From positions 1-64,000 of the forward strand of contig CALWCA010000012.1 of NCBI GenBank assembly GCA_944376235.1: 64,000 nt of DNA, given 5' to 3'. This DNA is from an uncultured Clostridia bacterium. Lineage in GTDB: Bacteria; Bacillota; Clostridia; Oscillospirales; Feifaniaceae. Positions within the stretch are counted from its first letter, which is position 1. The number at the start of each line of letters is the position of its first letter. The notes below the pieces were generated by a model. The model was not told the DNA's origin and did no database searches. It worked only from the letters and a program-made list of their open reading frames with translations. Position numbers and translations under genes: made by a program. Shown in pieces: positions 13,994 through 55,039 of this stretch.

Positions 13994-14224
13994 CAACAAA
14001 AGGTGTCCGACCAGTGCGCTTTTCCCTCTTTTCCCCCCTCGTTGCGGGAGAGGGGCCTTCCCCTCTCCCAAAAGCCAAACGGGCAGGCCCACGCAAAAGC
14101 ATCCTTTCCCTTTGGCCCCTTCGTCCGCCCCTTTAAGGGCCCTTTTTCCCAAAAATCCCCCGGCCCTCCTGCCGCTTTCTTTCGCACCCGCCCGCTTTTT
14201 GACAGAAATTGCGATGGAAAACAT

Positions 14225-14253
14225 TTGCACAATATACCAATATATGGTATTCT
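14225..14253 (+). promoter_or_regulatory. Promoter of noc with an overlapping palindrome
   Basis: TTGCAC (14225-14230) and TATTCT (14248-14253) lie 17 bases apart. Within the spacer and touching the -10 box is the inverted repeat ATACCA-N5-TGGTAT (14234-14250), a candidate operator that would block RNA polymerase. Confidence 0.55.
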
Positions 14254-14291
14254 TTCCTTGGAAATACCTGATTGCAGAAGGAGGAAGCGCC

Positions 14292-15077
14292 ATGCTGCAA
14301 AAAATGACAAAGTCCGGCAAGCTGGTCACGCTTGGCATCACGCAGGTGTCGCCCAACCGCTACCAGCCCCGCCGTGTTTTTGACGAAGACGCTCTCATGG
14401 AGCTGTCGGAATCCATCCGGCGCCACGGCCTGCTGCAGCCGGTCACGGTTCGTGCGGTGGGCAGGGGAGAGTATGAGCTGGTGGCCGGGGAGCGGCGTCT
14501 GCGCGCGGCCGTCATGGCCGGGCTGACCAAAATCCCGGCCCTTCTGGTGGACATGCCCGACCAGGAGGCCGCCGTCATGGCGCTGGTGGAGAATTTGCAG
14601 CGCCGGGATCTCGACTTCTTTGAGGAGGCCGAGGGGCTGGCCCGCCTTTTGGCCGAGCAAAACCTCACACAGGAGCAGGCTGCCGCCACGCTGGGGAAGA
14701 CTCAGTCGACCATCGCCAACAAGCTGCGCCTGCTCAAGCTGGATCCCGGGCTGCGCACCAAAATCCGCAAGGCGGGCCTGACCGAGCGCCATGCACGCGC
14801 CCTGCTGCGCCTGCCCGAGGAGCTGCGCGAGGCGGCGCTCTCGCGCATTGTCTCCCAAAAGCTGACGGTGGCTGCCACCGACAGGCTGGTCGGCCGTCTG
14901 CTGGAGCCGGCGCCCCCCGTACAGCCCAAGAAAAAGGCCATTGTCAAGGATGTCCGCCTCTTTCTCAACACGGTGGATCGCGCCCTCTCGATCATGAAAA
15001 CCTCCGGCATCCCGGCCAAGGCAGAGATGCAGGAGCGCGACAGCTGCTACGAATACCGCATCCTCATTCCAAAATAG
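14292..15077 (+). CDS. noc: Noc-like ParB-family nucleoid protein
   Basis: The 261-residue protein has the ParB N-domain (PNRYQPRRVFDE, then VAGERRLRAAV and ALVENLQRRDLD) and a helix-turn-helix region. GKTQSTIANKLRLLKL and TERHARAL match Noc more closely than ParB. Noc binds its own DNA sites and protects the nucleoid from division. The position directly before parA-parB supports this. The short basic N-terminus lacks an obvious membrane-targeting amphipathic helix like that of Bacillus subtilis Noc, and the C-terminus carries about 55 extra residues. GGAGGAAG precedes the ATG. Confidence 0.85.
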   Translation: MLQKMTKSGKLVTLGITQVSPNRYQPRRVFDEDALMELSESIRRHGLLQPVTVRAVGRGEYELVAGERRLRAAVMAGLTKIPALLVDMPDQEAAVMALVENLQRRDLDFFEEAEGLARLLAEQNLTQEQAAATLGKTQSTIANKLRLLKLDPGLRTKIRKAGLTERHARALLRLPEELREAALSRIVSQKLTVAATDRLVGRLLEPAPPVQPKKKAIVKDVRLFLNTVDRALSIMKTSGIPAKAEMQERDSCYEYRILIPK

Positions 15078-15445
15078 GCCGACCGCCCCACCCGCAAGCG
15101 TCCGCCCTTTTCGCAGCCTCCTCTTTTGGGGCTGCTTTCTCAGGCTTTCCCTTTCTTTGCGGGCCCCACGGCCGCGCAGCGGCCCTGCGCCCCGCCCCCC
15201 GCATGCTAAAGGCATGCGGGATGTGAGGCCTTTGGGCTCTTCCTTTCTCTTTGCCTCCTTTTATTTTTCACGCCAACTGCCTAAACGCCCCCGGCTCAAC
15301 CTTTTTTGCCAAAGGCCTCACCCGCACGGCCGCTGCGCGGCCGTGCCCGGCGGGGCGGGGCTGCCGCACACCAGCATAGCTTCCTCTCTGTTTGAAGGCC
15401 CGCCTTTCCCAGGACGCAAGGGGTTTGCCCCAGGGCGAGGGAGAA

Positions 15446-15573: not shown

Positions 15574-16338
15574 ATGGGCCGCATTATCGCAATCGCCAAT
15601 CAAAAGGGCGGCGTGGGCAAGACCACCACCGCCGTCAATCTCGCCGCAGAGCTGGCCGCGCAGGGCAGGGAAGTGCTGCTGTGCGACTTTGACCCGCAGG
15701 GCAACGCCACGTCTGGCCTTGGCATCAACAAGAAAAAGCTCACCCGCACCATCTATACCGTGCTGTGCGGCGGGGATACGGCGGCGTCGGCGCTGGTGCG
15801 CACCCCGGTTGAGCACCTGGCGCTGCTGCCCACCGACAACAACCTTGCCGGTGCGGCCATCGAGCTGGTGGCGCAGCCCGACCGCGTCACCCGCCTCAAG
15901 GACAAGCTGCTGCCCCTGCGCCACCGCTTTGACTTCCTTTTCATCGACTGTCCGCCCTCGCTTGAGCTGCTCACGCTCAACGCCCTCAACGCGGCCGACA
16001 GCGTGCTGGTGCCCATCCAATGCGAGTTTTTTGCGCTGGAGGGGCTGTCCCAGCTCACCAACTCCATCCGGCAGATTAAAAAGCTCTACAATCCCGAGCT
16101 CTCCATCGAAGGGGTGCTGCTCACCATGTACGACGGGCGCCTCAACCTGACGGTGGAGGTGGCGCAGGAAATCAAGCGCTTTTTTGCAGACAAGGTGTAT
16201 GCCACCGTGATCCCGCGCAACGTCAGGCTGAGCGAGGCGCCCAGCCACGGGCTGCCCATCGGGCTTTACGACAAGTATTCGCGCGGGGCGGAGGCCTACC
16301 GGGCCTTTGCCGAGGAATTTTTGAGCAAACAAAAATAA
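15574..16338 (+). CDS. parA: Chromosome partitioning ATPase ParA (Soj)
   Basis: The 254-residue protein is a deviant Walker ATPase: KGGVGKTTT at residues 11-19 with both signature lysines, FDPQGNATSG, and DCPPSLELLTLNA. ParA dimerises on DNA with ATP and is released by ParB, driving origin segregation and, in Firmicutes, modulating DnaA. The ATG at 15574 starts the canonical MGRIIAIANQKGG N-terminus. It is followed after about 110 bases by parB on the same strand. Confidence 0.97.
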   Translation: MGRIIAIANQKGGVGKTTTAVNLAAELAAQGREVLLCDFDPQGNATSGLGINKKKLTRTIYTVLCGGDTAASALVRTPVEHLALLPTDNNLAGAAIELVAQPDRVTRLKDKLLPLRHRFDFLFIDCPPSLELLTLNALNAADSVLVPIQCEFFALEGLSQLTNSIRQIKKLYNPELSIEGVLLTMYDGRLNLTVEVAQEIKRFFADKVYATVIPRNVRLSEAPSHGLPIGLYDKYSRGAEAYRAFAEEFLSKQK

Positions 16339-34803: not shown

Positions 34804-37383
34804 ATGAGCAAAAAGCAGCAGCATCAGGAGGGCAAGCCCGCCAACTACGAACACCAGACCATTCTCCCGGTGGACATCAACGCCGAGATGAAGAAAAGCT
34901 ATATTGAATATGCCATGTCGGTCATCACCTCGCGCGCCCTGCCCGACGTGAGGGACGGCCTCAAGCCGGTGCACCGCCGCATCCTGTATACCATGTACCA
35001 GGACGGGCTGGTCTATGAAAAGCCCTTCCGCAAGGCGGCCACCACGGTGGGCGCCGTGCTGGGCCGCTTCCACCCCCACGGGGACGGCTCGGTCTACGAC
35101 GCGCTGGTGCGCATGGCGCAGGACTTTTCGCTGCGCTATCCCCTGATTGACGGGCACGGCAACTTCGGCTCCATCGACGGAGACCCGCCCGCCGCCTACC
35201 GTTACACCGAGGCCCGGATGAGCCGCATTGCCGCCGAGCTGCTTTCGGACATCGAGAAGGACACCGTCGACTTCATGCCCAATTTCGACGAGCGCCTCAA
35301 GGAGCCCACCGTTTTGGCGGCGCGCTTCCCCTGCCTGCTGGTCAACGGCTCGTCGGGCATCGCCGTGGGCATGGCCACCTACATCCCGCCCCACAACCTC
35401 AGCGAGGTCATCGACGCCGTGGTCTACCAGATCGACCACCCCGACTGCACGCTCGACGAGCTCATGAACTTTGTCAAGGGGCCGGATTTCCCCACCGGGG
35501 GCATCATCAAGGGCGTGGCCGGCATCCGCGCCGCCTACGCCACCGGGCGCGGGCGCTGCCGCGTGACGGCGCGCACCGAAATCGAGGAGGTCAAGGACGG
35601 GAGATTCCGCATCATCGTGACCGAAATTCCCTATCAGGTCAACAAGTCGCGCCTGCTCGAGCAGATTGCCGAATGCGTCAAGGACAAGCGCATCGAGGGC
35701 ATCTCCTATCTGGAGGACGAATCGGGCAGAAACGGCATGCGCATCCGCATCGACCTCAAGCGCGACGCCAATCCCCAGGTGGTGCTCAACCAGCTGCTCA
35801 ACTACACCCAGCTTTCCGACACCTGCTCCTTCAATATGATGGCGCTGGTTGACGGGCAGCCCAAAACGCTGGGCCTCAAGGAGATTTTGCACCAGTATAT
35901 CCTCTTCCAGGAGGAGATTGTGGTGCGGCGCACCCGCTTTGACCTCAAAAAGGCGGAGGAGAGGGCCCACCTGCTCGAGGGCCTGCGCATCGCCGTGGAC
36001 AACATCGACGAGATCATCCGCATCATCCGCTCGAGCTACGACGACGCGCGCACCCGCCTGATGGAGCGTTTTTCGCTCTCCGCCGTGCAGGCGCAGGCCA
36101 TTCTTGAAATGCAGCTGCGCAGGCTTCAGGGGCTTGAGCGCGAGAAAATCGAAACCGAATATCAGGAGCTCACCGAGCGCATCGCTTGGTTTCGCCGCGT
36201 GCTGGCCGACGAGACGCTGGTGCAGGACATTGTCAAGCGCGAGTCGCTGGCCATCAAGGAGAAATACGGCGACGAGCGCCGCACCTCCATTGAAATCGAC
36301 TATGACGAGATTGACCTGGAAGACCTCATCGAGCAGGAGGACTGCGTGATTACGCGCAGCCACCTGGGCTATATCAAGCGGCAGCCGGTGTCCGCCTACC
36401 GTGCGCAGAGGCGCGGCGGCAGAGGGGTCAACGCCATGTCCACGCGCGAAGAGGACTTCGTGGAGGACATCTTCATTGCCAGCACCCACAGCCACCTGCT
36501 CTTTTTCACCGATAAGGGCCGCGTTTACCGCATGAAGGGCTACCACATCCCCGAAACCGGACGCGCCGCCAAGGGCACCAACATGGTCAACCTGGTGCCC
36601 CTGGAGCAGGGCGAGAAGATCACCGCCGTGCTGCATCTTGACAATTTCGAAGAGGGCAAGTATCTGACCATGATCACCAGAAAGGGCACCATCAAGCGCA
36701 CGGCGCTGTCGGAATACGACACGGCGCGCAAGGGCGGTCTGATTGCCATTTTGCTCGAGGAGGACGACGAGCTTGCCGACGTGCATCTGACAAACGGAAA
36801 CGACACGCTCATGCTGGCCACCGTGGGCGGCAAGGCCATCCACATCCGGGAGAGCGACGTGCGCGTGATGGGCCGTCCGGCGCACGGTGTGCGTGGCATC
36901 GACCTTGAGCCGGACGACAGCGTCATCGGCCTGCAGGTGGTGCGCGACGGGGCCACGCTGCTCACCGTGACGCAGCAGGGCTATGGGAAACGCACCCAAA
37001 TTAACGAATACAAGCTGCAAAATCGCGGCGGCAAGGGCATTCTCAACTACCATATCACCGACAAGACGGGGCCTGTGGCCGGCGTGCAGATGGTGGACGA
37101 GACCGACGACCTCATGCTGGTGACAGACGACGGCGTGGTCATCCGCATCGACGTGGCCGAGGTGCCGATTTACTCGCGCGTCACGCAGGGTGTGCGCGTC
37201 ATGAGGCTTGACGAAGGGGTCAGTCTTGTCACCATCACAAGGGCAGATAAGGAGCCCGACGTCGTGCCGGAGGAACAGGAGCAGGAAGAGGGGGAAAACG
37301 GCCTGTCCGACCAGACCGAAGCCTCTGAAACCGGCGATGCCGACACAGGAGAATCAGGCACGCCTGACACGCCGGTTTTGTAA
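34804..37383 (+). CDS. gyrA: DNA gyrase subunit A
   Basis: The 859-residue subunit has the breakage-reunion domain with catalytic Tyr134 ([10 protein letters not shown]) and the C-terminal beta-pinwheel with the GyrA box QRRGGRG that identifies gyrase rather than topoisomerase IV. The quinolone-resistance region reads [10 protein letters not shown], so the position of Escherichia coli Ser83 is glycine (residue 95) while the Asp87 position is kept. The C-terminus ends in an acidic tail. It is 275 bases after gyrB, probably in the same unit. Confidence 0.97.
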
Positions 37384-37748
37384 AAAATCAAGCGTCTTAA
37401 GGAAAAACGCTGAAATTTACAGGATGTGCTGAAAACAAGCGGGATGCCAGGGCCCGGCCTTTGGGGACGAAAGTCCCCAAAGGCCGGGCCCTGGCCACAG
37501 GCGCCGGGATGCTCCCCGCGCGCGTTTCATGCGATGTCCCGCATGGACGCCAAGCCAGGCAGGAAAGCCCTGCCCGGCTTGGCGCCGGCCGGGCCCTTTG
37601 GGTCGGCCAAACGCGCGCGGGGGCACCCCGGCGTAAAAAATGCAATAGAAATGGGGGGCCAAAACCGAGAATTTGGCCCCCCAGAAAGGATGAATGAGTG
37701 TGAGTGAGCAGTGTGTGAGTGGAAATAAGTGGGTGAACTGACCGCAGC
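37384..37748. ncRNA. Strongly folded non-coding stretch after gyrA (candidate structured RNA)
   Basis: A perfect 23-base stem with a GAAA tetraloop (37446-37468 with 37473-37495) is followed by a long-range stem (37501-37527 with 37609-37634, including G-U pairs, one bulge and one mismatch). This stem encloses three hairpins: 37528-37545, 37548-37584 and 37587-37608. The result is a four-way cloverleaf. A further perfect 11-base stem (37653-37663 with 37672-37682) follows. No ribosome binding site or coding pattern was seen. Whether it is a transcribed RNA, a cluster of terminators or a DNA element is open. Confidence 0.5.
37653..37682 (-). terminator. Possible terminator of the VWA gene
   Basis: On the minus strand the 11-base stem is followed by a loosely T-rich stretch ending in six T residues, 66 bases after the VWA stop codon. 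It would serve that gene, but could equally be the last helix of the folded element. Confidence 0.45.
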
Positions 37749-39113
37749 TTAGAGGGAATCGGAGCAGGTAAAATCCGTTTCGATCATATTGGCAAGAAAA
37801 CGAGCCTTGAGGGTGCGGTTTTTGCAAAAGCCGCAGCCAGAGACGTTGAGATCCTCGGGCAAAACGAATTTGATGCCTTTGACCAGCACGTCACGGCAGC
37901 CGGAGGAAAAATGTGCGGGAACCGTGAGGATTTTGGTTCCGCGCGGGTGTTCGGTGCCGGATTCGTCCTCCTCGCTGAGAAAGACAGCCAGCCCGACGCG
38001 TTTGCGTGGGCAGACGTCGCGGATGGTGACGTCGAGCGTAAGAATGCGGCCCAGCGACTGCAGCTCAATTTCGCCCGCATCGGCGACAAGGGCGTCGCTG
38101 CAGCCCTCCACCGTCAGCTCGACCGGCTGGGGACAGGGCTCAGGCACGACGATTTCCGTGCAGTTGACGTCAATCGAAGGCTCGGGAAATGTGACGGCGT
38201 TGTCCTGATCATCGCTGTAGTAGACCGACTGGTTGATTTTTTTGGTGCCTCCTGTGGAGTCGACATGCTGCACCGTGAAGGTGAGCGAGGCTCCTTCGGA
38301 GGAGGTCACGCCAAGCTCCGGGATGTTCCAGCTCAGGGTGCGCTCCCCGGTCAGCATGGCCGAGCCCTTGGTGGGCTGCGAAAGGCTCAGGATTTGAAAA
38401 TCCTGCTCCACCGTCTCGTCAATGAGGATGGAGGTTGCCCCCGGCTTGCTGATGTTTGCGGCGAGGTCTTCAAAGAGGGTTTCAAGATCGGCCTCATCGG
38501 GAGTGACGGCAACGTGGGAGGCATCGGGGTCGGTGGCCCAGTCGTTGAGAGCCGAGACGTCGATACCGTTTGAGCCGATCAGACCGATGGCATAGATAAC
38601 GATGCCCCGCGCCCGGGCTGCGGCCGCGACGGGACTTGGGTTGCCGCCGGCGGTGGTGTTTCCGTCGGTGAACATCACCATGACCTTGGCATTGGAGGAG
38701 GGAGCGCTCAAAAGCGACGTGGCCACGGAAAAGGCGTCGGCATGATTGGTCAGCCCGCCTGCGGACAGGGCGTCAACGGCGGCGTTGAGATCTGCCACGG
38801 AGGTGATGAGAGAGGTGTCCTCCGAGGCCGTGCTGGCAAAGCTGACAATGCCGATCCTGCTGCCCGAGCCAATCTGACCGTCCCCACTGCCGTCGGTGGC
38901 CTGGTCGATGATTTCAATGAATTTTTTTGCGCCCAGCTTGAGGTTGGCCAGCGCGCTGCCCTCCATGCTGCCCGAACGGTCGAGCACCAGGACGATATCG
39001 GTAGGATTTGTGGTGATATCGGGGGCGGCGGTCAGAGCCAGCGTTACGTCAAAGGTGCCGTTGCAGTCAATTTGGGTGAGGCTTGCGGTTTTGTTGGCGT
39101 TGGTTACACCCAT
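37749..39113 (-). CDS. VWA-domain protein with a cysteine-rich C-terminal domain
   Basis: The 454-residue protein has a von Willebrand factor A domain (about residues 38-215) with an intact metal-ion site: DRSGS, a Thr in GLTNHAD and Asp in MFTDGN. A beta-rich region follows, then a C-terminal part with several cysteines (DVCPRKRVGL, SGCRDVLVKG, SGCGFCKNR). There is no signal peptide, membrane anchor or sorting motif, although the content resembles a surface or coat protein. The ATG follows AAAGGAGC. Function is unknown; adhesion or assembly of an outer layer is an inference from the domain type. Confidence 0.85.
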   Translation of the reverse strand: MGVTNANKTASLTQIDCNGTFDVTLALTAAPDITTNPTDIVLVLDRSGSMEGSALANLKLGAKKFIEIIDQATDGSGDGQIGSGSRIGIVSFASTASEDTSLITSVADLNAAVDALSAGGLTNHADAFSVATSLLSAPSSNAKVMVMFTDGNTTAGGNPSPVAAAARARGIVIYAIGLIGSNGIDVSALNDWATDPDASHVAVTPDEADLETLFEDLAANISKPGATSILIDETVEQDFQILSLSQPTKGSAMLTGERTLSWNIPELGVTSSEGASLTFTVQHVDSTGGTKKINQSVYYSDDQDNAVTFPEPSIDVNCTEIVVPEPCPQPVELTVEGCSDALVADAGEIELQSLGRILTLDVTIRDVCPRKRVGLAVFLSEEDESGTEHPRGTKILTVPAHFSSGCRDVLVKGIKFVLPEDLNVSGCGFCKNRTLKARFLANMIETDFTCSDSL

Positions 39114-49535: not shown

Positions 49536-49755
49536 GACGAAAGACGCCCCCTGTGGAGGGAGAGAAAAAAGACTTTTGCGGCGCGGCCGTTGAGATAAGG
49601 CAGGAAAAGACGGCGAGGGCCTTGCGGGAAAACCCCGCAAGGCCCTCGCCGTCTTTGGGCAAAGCAGCCCTGCCGAAAAAGGGCAAGCGTTCAAGCATGC
49701 CCTTTCCGGACGGCCTGCCTTGGCGCGCAGGGACGCGGGGAGGCCCCTCTTTGCC
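49536..49755 (+). terminator. Strong hairpin after mutY (49606-49656)
   Basis: A perfect 23-base stem (49606-49628 with 49634-49656) on an AAAAC loop lies 70 bases after mutY. Only three T residues end the stem, so it may need help to terminate; it may also block 3' decay. Confidence 0.75.
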
Positions 49756-51580: not shown

Positions 51581-51671
51581 AAAAAAAGGAAAAAACCGGC
51601 ACCGCACGGCTTGCTGCGCCAAGCGGTTGGCGGGGGCCGTGACCAAAAAAGCAAAAGAGGGGGAAACCTGC

Positions 51672-52838
51672 ATGAAAATCACGGACGATATCCTTTACGT
51701 CGGCGTCAACGACCACGACATTGACCTGTTTGAGGGGCAATACGTCGTGCCAAACGGCATGGCCTACAACTCCTATGTCATTTTGGACGACCAGGTTGCC
51801 GTGATGGACACGGTGGACGCGCGCTTTGCCGGGCAGTGGCTTGACAACGTAAGGCAGGCGCTGGGGCAGCGCAAGCCGGCCTATCTGGTGGTGCAGCACA
51901 TGGAGCCCGACCACTCGGCCAACGTGGCGCGCTTCATGGAGGCCTATCCCGACGCCGTGGTGGTGGCCTCGTCCAAGGCCTTTGCCATGATGAAGCAGTT
52001 TTTCGGCACCGACTTTGCCGACCGCCGCCAGGTGGTGGGCGACGGCGACACGCTGTGCCTGGGCAGCCACACGCTGCGCTTTGTCACGGCGCCCATGGTG
52101 CACTGGCCGGAGGTGATCATGACCTACGACGAGAGCGCAAAGGTGCTTTTTTCGGCCGACGCCTTTGGAAAATTCGGGGCGCTCGACGTGCAGGAGGATT
52201 GGGCCTGCGAGGCGCGGCGCTACTACATCGGCATTGTGGGGAAATACGGCGCGCAGGTGCAGGTTGTGCTGGGCAAGCTGGGGGGAGCGCAGCTTTCGGC
52301 CGTCTGCCCCCTGCACGGGCCGGTGCTGACCGGGGAGCTTGGCCGCTATCTGGAGCTTTACAACATCTGGTCGTCCTATGGCGTCGAGAGCGAGGGGGTT
52401 GTCATCGCCTACACCTCGGTTTACGGGCACACGCGCGAGGCGGTGGAGCTGCTGGCCGACCGGCTGCGCCAGAGGGGCTGCCCGGAGGTGGTTGTGACCG
52501 ACCTTGCGCGCTGCGACATGGCCGAGGCGGTGGAGGACGCCTTCCGCTACGGCACGCTGGTGCTTGCCACCACCACCTACAACGGGGAGATTTTCCCCTT
52601 TATGCACACTTTTTTGCACAATCTCACCGAGAGGAACTTCCAAAACCGCAGGGTGGCCTTTGTGGAAAATGGGAGCTGGGCGCCGCTTGCGGCAAAGACC
52701 ATGAAAAAGCTGCTGGAGGGCAGCAAGCAGCTGACCTATGCCGAAACCACCGTCACGCTGCGCTCGGCGCTGGACGACGCCAGCCGGCAGCAGGTGGAGG
52801 CCCTGGCGCAGGAGCTGTGGCCGGGCGGCGGACGGTAG
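51672..52838 (+). CDS. Flavodiiron protein (A-type flavoprotein, O2/NO reductase)
   Basis: The 388-residue protein has a metallo-beta-lactamase-like di-iron domain with HMEPDH (residues 76-81), a later histidine at MVHWPE, an aspartate in FSADAFG and a histidine in PLHGPV, then a C-terminal flavodoxin domain (YTSVYGHTREAV, TTTYNGE). These enzymes reduce O2 to water or NO to N2O in anaerobes. The start at 51672 is an ATG after GAGGGGGAA. It is probably repressed or at least influenced by the adjacent PadR site. Confidence 0.93.
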   Translation: MKITDDILYVGVNDHDIDLFEGQYVVPNGMAYNSYVILDDQVAVMDTVDARFAGQWLDNVRQALGQRKPAYLVVQHMEPDHSANVARFMEAYPDAVVVASSKAFAMMKQFFGTDFADRRQVVGDGDTLCLGSHTLRFVTAPMVHWPEVIMTYDESAKVLFSADAFGKFGALDVQEDWACEARRYYIGIVGKYGAQVQVVLGKLGGAQLSAVCPLHGPVLTGELGRYLELYNIWSSYGVESEGVVIAYTSVYGHTREAVELLADRLRQRGCPEVVVTDLARCDMAEAVEDAFRYGTLVLATTTYNGEIFPFMHTFLHNLTERNFQNRRVAFVENGSWAPLAAKTMKKLLEGSKQLTYAETTVTLRSALDDASRQQVEALAQELWPGGGR

Positions 52839-53120
52839 GCTGCGCACGCCCTGCCCTTCCCCAAGGGCGCCGGAGGGCTCCCGGGGGAGGGGCCCCGGCT
52901 TTGGGGCGGACAAAGCCCGGCAAGGCGCGCGGCGGACGCCGCGCGCCTTGCCGGAGAGGGGCGGCGGCAGCGCGGGAGCGGGTTCCCGCGCTGCCGCCGC
53001 CCCTTAAAGCAGGGCCGGGGGAGAGGCTTCTCCCCCGGCCCTGCTTTGCTTTGTCCGCCGGGTTGGCTGCGGCGGGGAAAGGGGGCCTTTTTGCCGGGAA
53101 AAGCCTTTTTTGAAAGGGTG
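52839..53120. other. Three tandem long hairpins after the flavodiiron gene
   Basis: Three near-perfect inverted repeats stand end to end: 52917-52954 (18-base arms), 52957-53004 (about 20-base arms) and 53006-53047 (19-base arms). Only 1-2 bases separate them. The last ends in TTTG and a T-rich stretch. Such a stack is unusual; it may be a strong terminator, a 3' decay block or a structured RNA. No gene is present. Confidence 0.65.
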
Positions 53121-54826: not shown

Positions 54827-54844
54827 AATAGGGTCGCAGAGAAG

Positions 54845-54972
54845 TGCCTTTGGGGCCGGGTGAAATTCCCGACCGGCGGTAAAAGTCCGCAAACGCCCCC
54901 TTTTTTGAAAAGGAGGGGCGCCGATCCGGTGAAATTCCGGGACCGACAGTAGAGTCTGGATGGGAAAAGGCA
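54845..54972 (+). ncRNA. FMN riboswitch (RFN element)
   Basis: The sequence shows the RFN core: GGGTGAAATTCCCGACCGG, GGTnnnAGTCCGC, GATCCGGTGAAATTCCGG and GACCGACAGT, closed by a P1 stem (54845-54851 with 54966-54972). It binds flavin mononucleotide and turns off riboflavin transport. It sits upstream of ribU with a terminator in between, so control by transcription attenuation is expected. Confidence 0.97.
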
Positions 54973-55039
54973 TGCGCGGAGCGGGGTTTTTTTGCCATGC
55001 GCAGACCCCGGGGCCCCCGCATGATTGCTGTTGTCATCC

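Follow-up and report, generated by a model that had tools for sequence, protein, structure and literature searches.

The convergent gap between gyrA and a gene encoding a VWA-domain protein is filled by two hairpins and a nested, cloverleaf-like inverted repeat, which are probably transcription-end elements altered by DNA copying errors. The explanation that we consider probable is that they are terminator-like palindromes at gene ends, which arise through DNA template switching and owe their continued perfection to it, and no sign has been found of the cloverleaf being a new RNA gene, as a sequence-only reading had proposed. The whole stretch of 64,000 nucleotides that was analysed is referred to as the window. 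It belongs to the 1.54 Mb draft genome of a gut bacterium (G000), which was compared with its nearest relative, Candidatus Galloscillospira excrementipullorum (G002; gyrA contig DVNV01000021, gyrA 95% identical), a MAG and also a draft assembly. The features of the locus are the following:

34804-37383, + strand: gyrA, left flank, running towards the element (ORF; Pfam PF00521 and PF03989)
37446-37495, unstranded: hairpin 1, 23-bp perfect stem with GAAA loop; orthologous hairpin in the sister species
37502-37633, unstranded: cloverleaf, a nested inverted repeat with closing stem 37502-37527/37609-37633, from folds
37528-37545, unstranded: inner hairpin A (CATGCG/CGCATG), from folds
37548-37584, unstranded: inner hairpin B, 16-bp arms, one mismatch on the + strand being a G-U pair on the - strand
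37587-37608, unstranded: inner hairpin C, from folds
37652-37683, - strand: hairpin 3, 12-bp stem (37652-37663/37672-37683), U-rich tail on the - strand
37749-39113, - strand: gene of the VWA-domain protein, right flank, running towards the element (ORF; Pfam PF00092)

Folding of the gap (37384-37748) has revealed a minimum free energy (MFE) of -214.1 kcal/mol on the + strand (z -14.2 against shuffles) and -217.7 kcal/mol on the - strand (z -13.9), and no shuffle matched the stability of the real fold on either strand. The existence of the structure noticed in the sequence-only reading was thus borne out far beyond chance, with z of about -14 on each strand, and its view that a single plain terminator is an inadequate description of the fold was upheld. 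It is the stems that exceed chance, by their length and perfection. The closed multibranch shape, to which that reading had given particular weight, is not remarkable in itself, since multiloops under a loose definition were present in 96 real and 104 shuffled gaps out of 216 each; in this G+C-rich genome, shuffled gaps often have closed multiloops in their MFE folds, and the loose search was dropped as evidence. An Rfam scan gave no family at gathering score, with weak matches far under each cut-off, in agreement with the earlier statement that the element fits no RNA class that can be named, and no sigma-70-like promoter was found between 37300 and 37800. Elsewhere in the window, an FMN riboswitch is located at 54842-54975 (113.9 bits).

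Most parts of the element were recovered as originally described. Hairpin 1 lies 62 nt past gyrA, with the perfect 23-base stem and GAAA loop at 37446-37468/37473-37495, and lacks a T-tract on both sides. The long-range stem, given before as about 23 pairs, has 25 pairs in the + fold, 14 of them contiguous (37514-37527/37609-37622), and encloses three hairpins, the last of which (C) contains GGCCGGGCCCT (37587-37597), a repeat of positions 37482-37492 of hairpin 1. The cloverleaf alone folds at -108.2 with two G-U pairs on the + strand and at -117.6 with four on the - strand, so that the G-U pairs are not the sign of RNA selection on the gyrA strand that they had been taken for; an equal or better fold on the opposite strand is expected of DNA-level inverted repeats. 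The last stem is present, with 12 bp rather than the 11 first counted. This hairpin 3 lies 65 nt beyond the VWA stop and passes a loose terminator scan on the - strand (TTTCTATT), in which two sites were found against 1.1 expected in shuffles. It is a plausible intrinsic terminator candidate for the VWA gene on the - strand, and the best in the gap. Both hairpins 1 and 3 are G+C-rich and lie just 3' of a gene, as Rho-independent terminators do.

In the sister species the gyrA gene and the ortholog of the VWA gene are found in the same convergent order, and the syntenic gap keeps hairpins 1 and 3 without the entire cloverleaf, which is missing as one clean indel in an affine-gap alignment that charges little for a long gap. 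MAFFT applied to both gaps splits hairpin 1, and the affine-gap alignment keeps it whole, with the same score when forced. The sister hairpin 1 has 22 pairs, with four double compensatory changes and no one-sided change, and its spacer/centre gives 40 identities of 50 in inverted orientation vs 37 of 50 in direct orientation. Hairpin 3 is conserved, with a + strand tail TTTTT that is not present in the source genome. Two further genomes were uninformative at this site: in G003 the VWA gene does not occupy this place and the gap is different, and in G001 the contig ends inside gyrA. From this sequence comparison, hairpins 1 and 3 appear as old elements common to both species and the cloverleaf as an element of one lineage only, gained or lost. 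The cloverleaf may be a bystander, because it is dispensable in the sister species.

The comparison was extended to the gene-end hairpins of both genomes. Among the 62 hairpins of the source genome whose flanks were mapped in the sister species, 47 have a homologous hairpin there, in which 729 pairs are the same, 42 show double changes, 22 one-sided changes and 10 are broken. Over kept stems, two exact loop inversions between the species (AAA/TTT at L103 4593 and AAAA/TTTT at L116 1841) and several near-exact ones (such as AAAAC/GTTTA at window position 49606) were identified. Arm homogenization together with spacer inversion is the reported signature of template switching between inverted repeats (PMC8604942), a process able to create and maintain hairpins (PMC8794818; PMC7202029), and paired changes, inverted spacers and perfect arms were all found here. 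Because of these footprints in orthologous hairpins, the covariation of the gene-end hairpins is read as at least partly mutational. The covariation that exists is located in hairpin 1 and in the genome-wide hairpins, not in the cloverleaf, which has no homologue to show any.

A sample of 456 kb, about 30% of the source genome, with genes called by a codon model in a simple script, contains 87 hairpins with arms of at least 14 bp, against one in a Markov control. Such hairpins are found in 31 of the 38 convergent gaps, in 34 of the 167 tandem ones and in one of the 42 divergent ones, and this strong bias towards gene ends means that selection for some hairpin at these positions is still needed. 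The density of 19-20 per 100 kb is about four times that of the gyrA surroundings of other Clostridia (5.0 per 100 kb over 746 kb, a comparison set of heterogeneous base composition), and some single genomes of the order reach a similar density in small samples. No clustering was observed among the stem arms of non-orthologous hairpins, which have at most short GC-rich stretches in common. Outside the stem, a T-rich tail is missing on both sides in 49 of the 87 hairpins (hairpin 1 among them), which counts against assuming canonical intrinsic termination at these sites. On the sense strand of the upstream gene, tandem hairpins have more G-U than A-C combinations (26:14 in the source genome, p 0.08; 52:31 in the sister species, p 0.03), a weak excess that agrees with some RNA-level selection; as proof of such selection the asymmetry was set aside for its weakness.

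Nested elements with the plan of the cloverleaf and unrelated sequences were located by a strict rule, namely a closing stem of at least 11 uninterrupted pairs, inside which two or more hairpins occupy half of the space. With the low-complexity contig L155 excluded, the rule gave four closed cloverleafs in 456 kb of the source genome and seven in 722 kb of the sister species (11 in 1.18 Mb). The 1.36 Mb used for comparison (G001, G003, further genomes of the order, named gyrA loci) and the controls had none. The cloverleaf at 37502-37633 is itself missed by the rule because its inner hairpins A and C are short. The excluded contig (L155, C35 of the sister species) is a 2.6 kb sequence that consists nearly entirely of self-complementary simple repeat. 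Two other nested elements lie in the window:

52905-53059, unstranded: second cloverleaf, same plan and unrelated sequence, perfect 12-bp closing stem and perfect hairpins of 17, 22 and 19 bp
15167-15345, unstranded: third nested inverted repeat, between parB and parA, with stems of 18 bp (outer) and 13 bp (inner)

The best example is that at 52905-53059, which follows the gene of a flavodiiron-like protein (51639-52838) and leaves hardly a base unpaired between its hairpins. It is also present in the sister species, where the assembly is interrupted within it (contigs C21 and C98) and where its first hairpin has an inverted centre. The element at 15167-15345, flanked by parB-like (14214-15077) and parA-like (15574-16338) genes, has a counterpart in the sister species (L135 71-263) that is also multibranched, and together with L106/L126 and L098/L167 it makes three orthologous pairs that are multibranched in both species despite stem changes. 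The cloverleaf at L167 3026-3179 of the sister species is absent from the orthologous site of the source genome (L098 3948-4165), the difference being a clean indel of some 140 nt with GCCGGC at each border, which would fit deletion by slippage. A convergent gap of the source genome (L105 13654-13890) also contains a closed nested repeat, whose closing stem is perfect over 27 bp. No loop or junction sequence is common to different cloverleafs. The nested variant of the gene-end palindrome looks unreported. A more ambitious interpretation, to which we give limited credence, is that Ca. Galloscillospira possesses a class of sequence-independent four-way gene-end cloverleafs, made by template switching and kept for their RNA or cruciform architecture.

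In the explanation that is preferred here, gyrA and VWA transcripts would run into the palindromes, which would fold in RNA and end or protect both converging messages, and the likeliest role would be the ending or end protection of the two converging transcripts. Judging from its footprints, DNA polymerase template switching would copy one arm onto the other, which would perfect the stems, alter both sides of a pair at once and invert the loops, and it could also enlarge or remove nested repeats. The argument is drawn mostly from two draft genomes, with two species compared, and double changes are also expected from ordinary compensatory evolution. Against this explanation stands the fact that a terminator needs no 25-bp stem around three hairpins, and the three other nested elements that are multibranched in both species could point to selection for the architecture itself. 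According to such an alternative, the multibranch shape would be selected whatever its sequence, as a functional cis element of the VWA or gyrA mRNA, at its 3' end, or as a four-way DNA junction, with mRNA end protection, blocking of convergent polymerases and cruciform formation as proposed roles. The recurrence of closed nested elements of unrelated sequence in these two genomes, the persistence of the three orthologous pairs and the better fold of the - strand of the cloverleaf, with its four G-U pairs, are in its favour, but cloverleafs are absent from most gene ends and two of them are each missing from the other species, and it is considered unlikely.

Presence or absence of the cloverleaf between sister species, the L167 indel of similar size and the palindromic build would also suit a small, non-autonomous REP/BIME/MITE-like mobile element that had entered between hairpins 1 and 3. 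Yet searches for the cloverleaf gave only self matches in its own genome, nothing beyond scraps of 23-33 nt in 394 genomes of the order and no match in phages or plasmids, a clear target duplication was not seen, and the arms of non-orthologous hairpins are alike only in short GC-rich stretches, which makes such an insertion very unlikely; identity with REP, BIME or MITE was rejected for want of multiple copies and of arm clusters. Scattered copies of a mobile repeat, which the sequence-only reading had set against its own proposal, were not found by sequence, and it is the architecture of the cloverleaf, though not its sequence, that is scattered over the gene ends of the genome. That proposal, a new class of structured non-coding RNA, has in its favour a very stable multibranch fold in an intergenic position without an Rfam match, but it is left unsupported by the absence of a homologue at the syntenic site, in the own genome and in the 394 genomes, hence of covariation, by the lack of a promoter-like site in 37300-37800 and of a loop or junction sequence in common, and by a fold at least as good on the other strand; it is judged highly improbable. 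Least credible of all is a chimeric fold-back formed from metagenomic DNA during assembly or amplification. It is suggested by the draft state of both assemblies, one of them a MAG, and by fold-back arms starting 9 of 101 contig ends of the sister species vs 0.25% of random positions, but the two species, assembled independently, share hairpins at orthologous sites with compensatory changes between them, and the cloverleaf at 52905-53059 occurs in both. The enrichment at contig ends suggests that strong palindromes break short-read assemblies, and nested elements may consequently be undercounted.

SbcCD is a nuclease that cuts long palindromes in Escherichia coli. SbcD was not found in the source genome, the sister species or G003, where SbcC gave only weak SMC-like matches, and both proteins are present in G001, the fourth genome of the genus. 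Loss of SbcCD as the cause of the dense hairpins finds no clear support in the small samples compared, as density does not go with it elsewhere: 20 hairpins per 100 kb were counted in G029, which has SbcD, and 9 per 100 kb in G003, which is without it.

Covariation and a dramatic fold can both come from DNA copying at palindromes, so that neither is enough to prove an RNA gene. Should the nested elements be confirmed, this lineage would lend itself to following palindromes as they arise, become perfect, invert and disappear, and to testing how cells tolerate them.

Among known systems, REP and BIME elements (PMC3733652, PMC12306157) are likewise palindromic and extragenic, with proposed roles in termination and mRNA stability, but the Galloscillospira palindromes have no common sequence family or repeated copies. 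The resemblance is closer to the gene-end stem-loops and bidirectional Rho-independent terminators of low-GC Firmicutes (Petrillo et al. 2006, PMC1590033), which are intergenic, concentrated at gene 3' ends and very stable, often with A-rich 5' and T-rich 3' stem sides that can serve both strands. The Galloscillospira palindromes differ in that their stems are longer, more perfect and more densely spaced than those of the other sampled Clostridia; an outside T-tract is lacking in roughly half of them, and some form closed multibranch shapes by nesting. Perfect arms, two-sided pair changes and inverted spacers are shared with quasipalindrome correction and template-switch mutation (PMC7202029, PMC8794818, PMC8604942). 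Unlike the cases described, template switching is deduced here from two draft genomes, seems to act on gene-end hairpins throughout the population, and may have given rise to the nested repeats.
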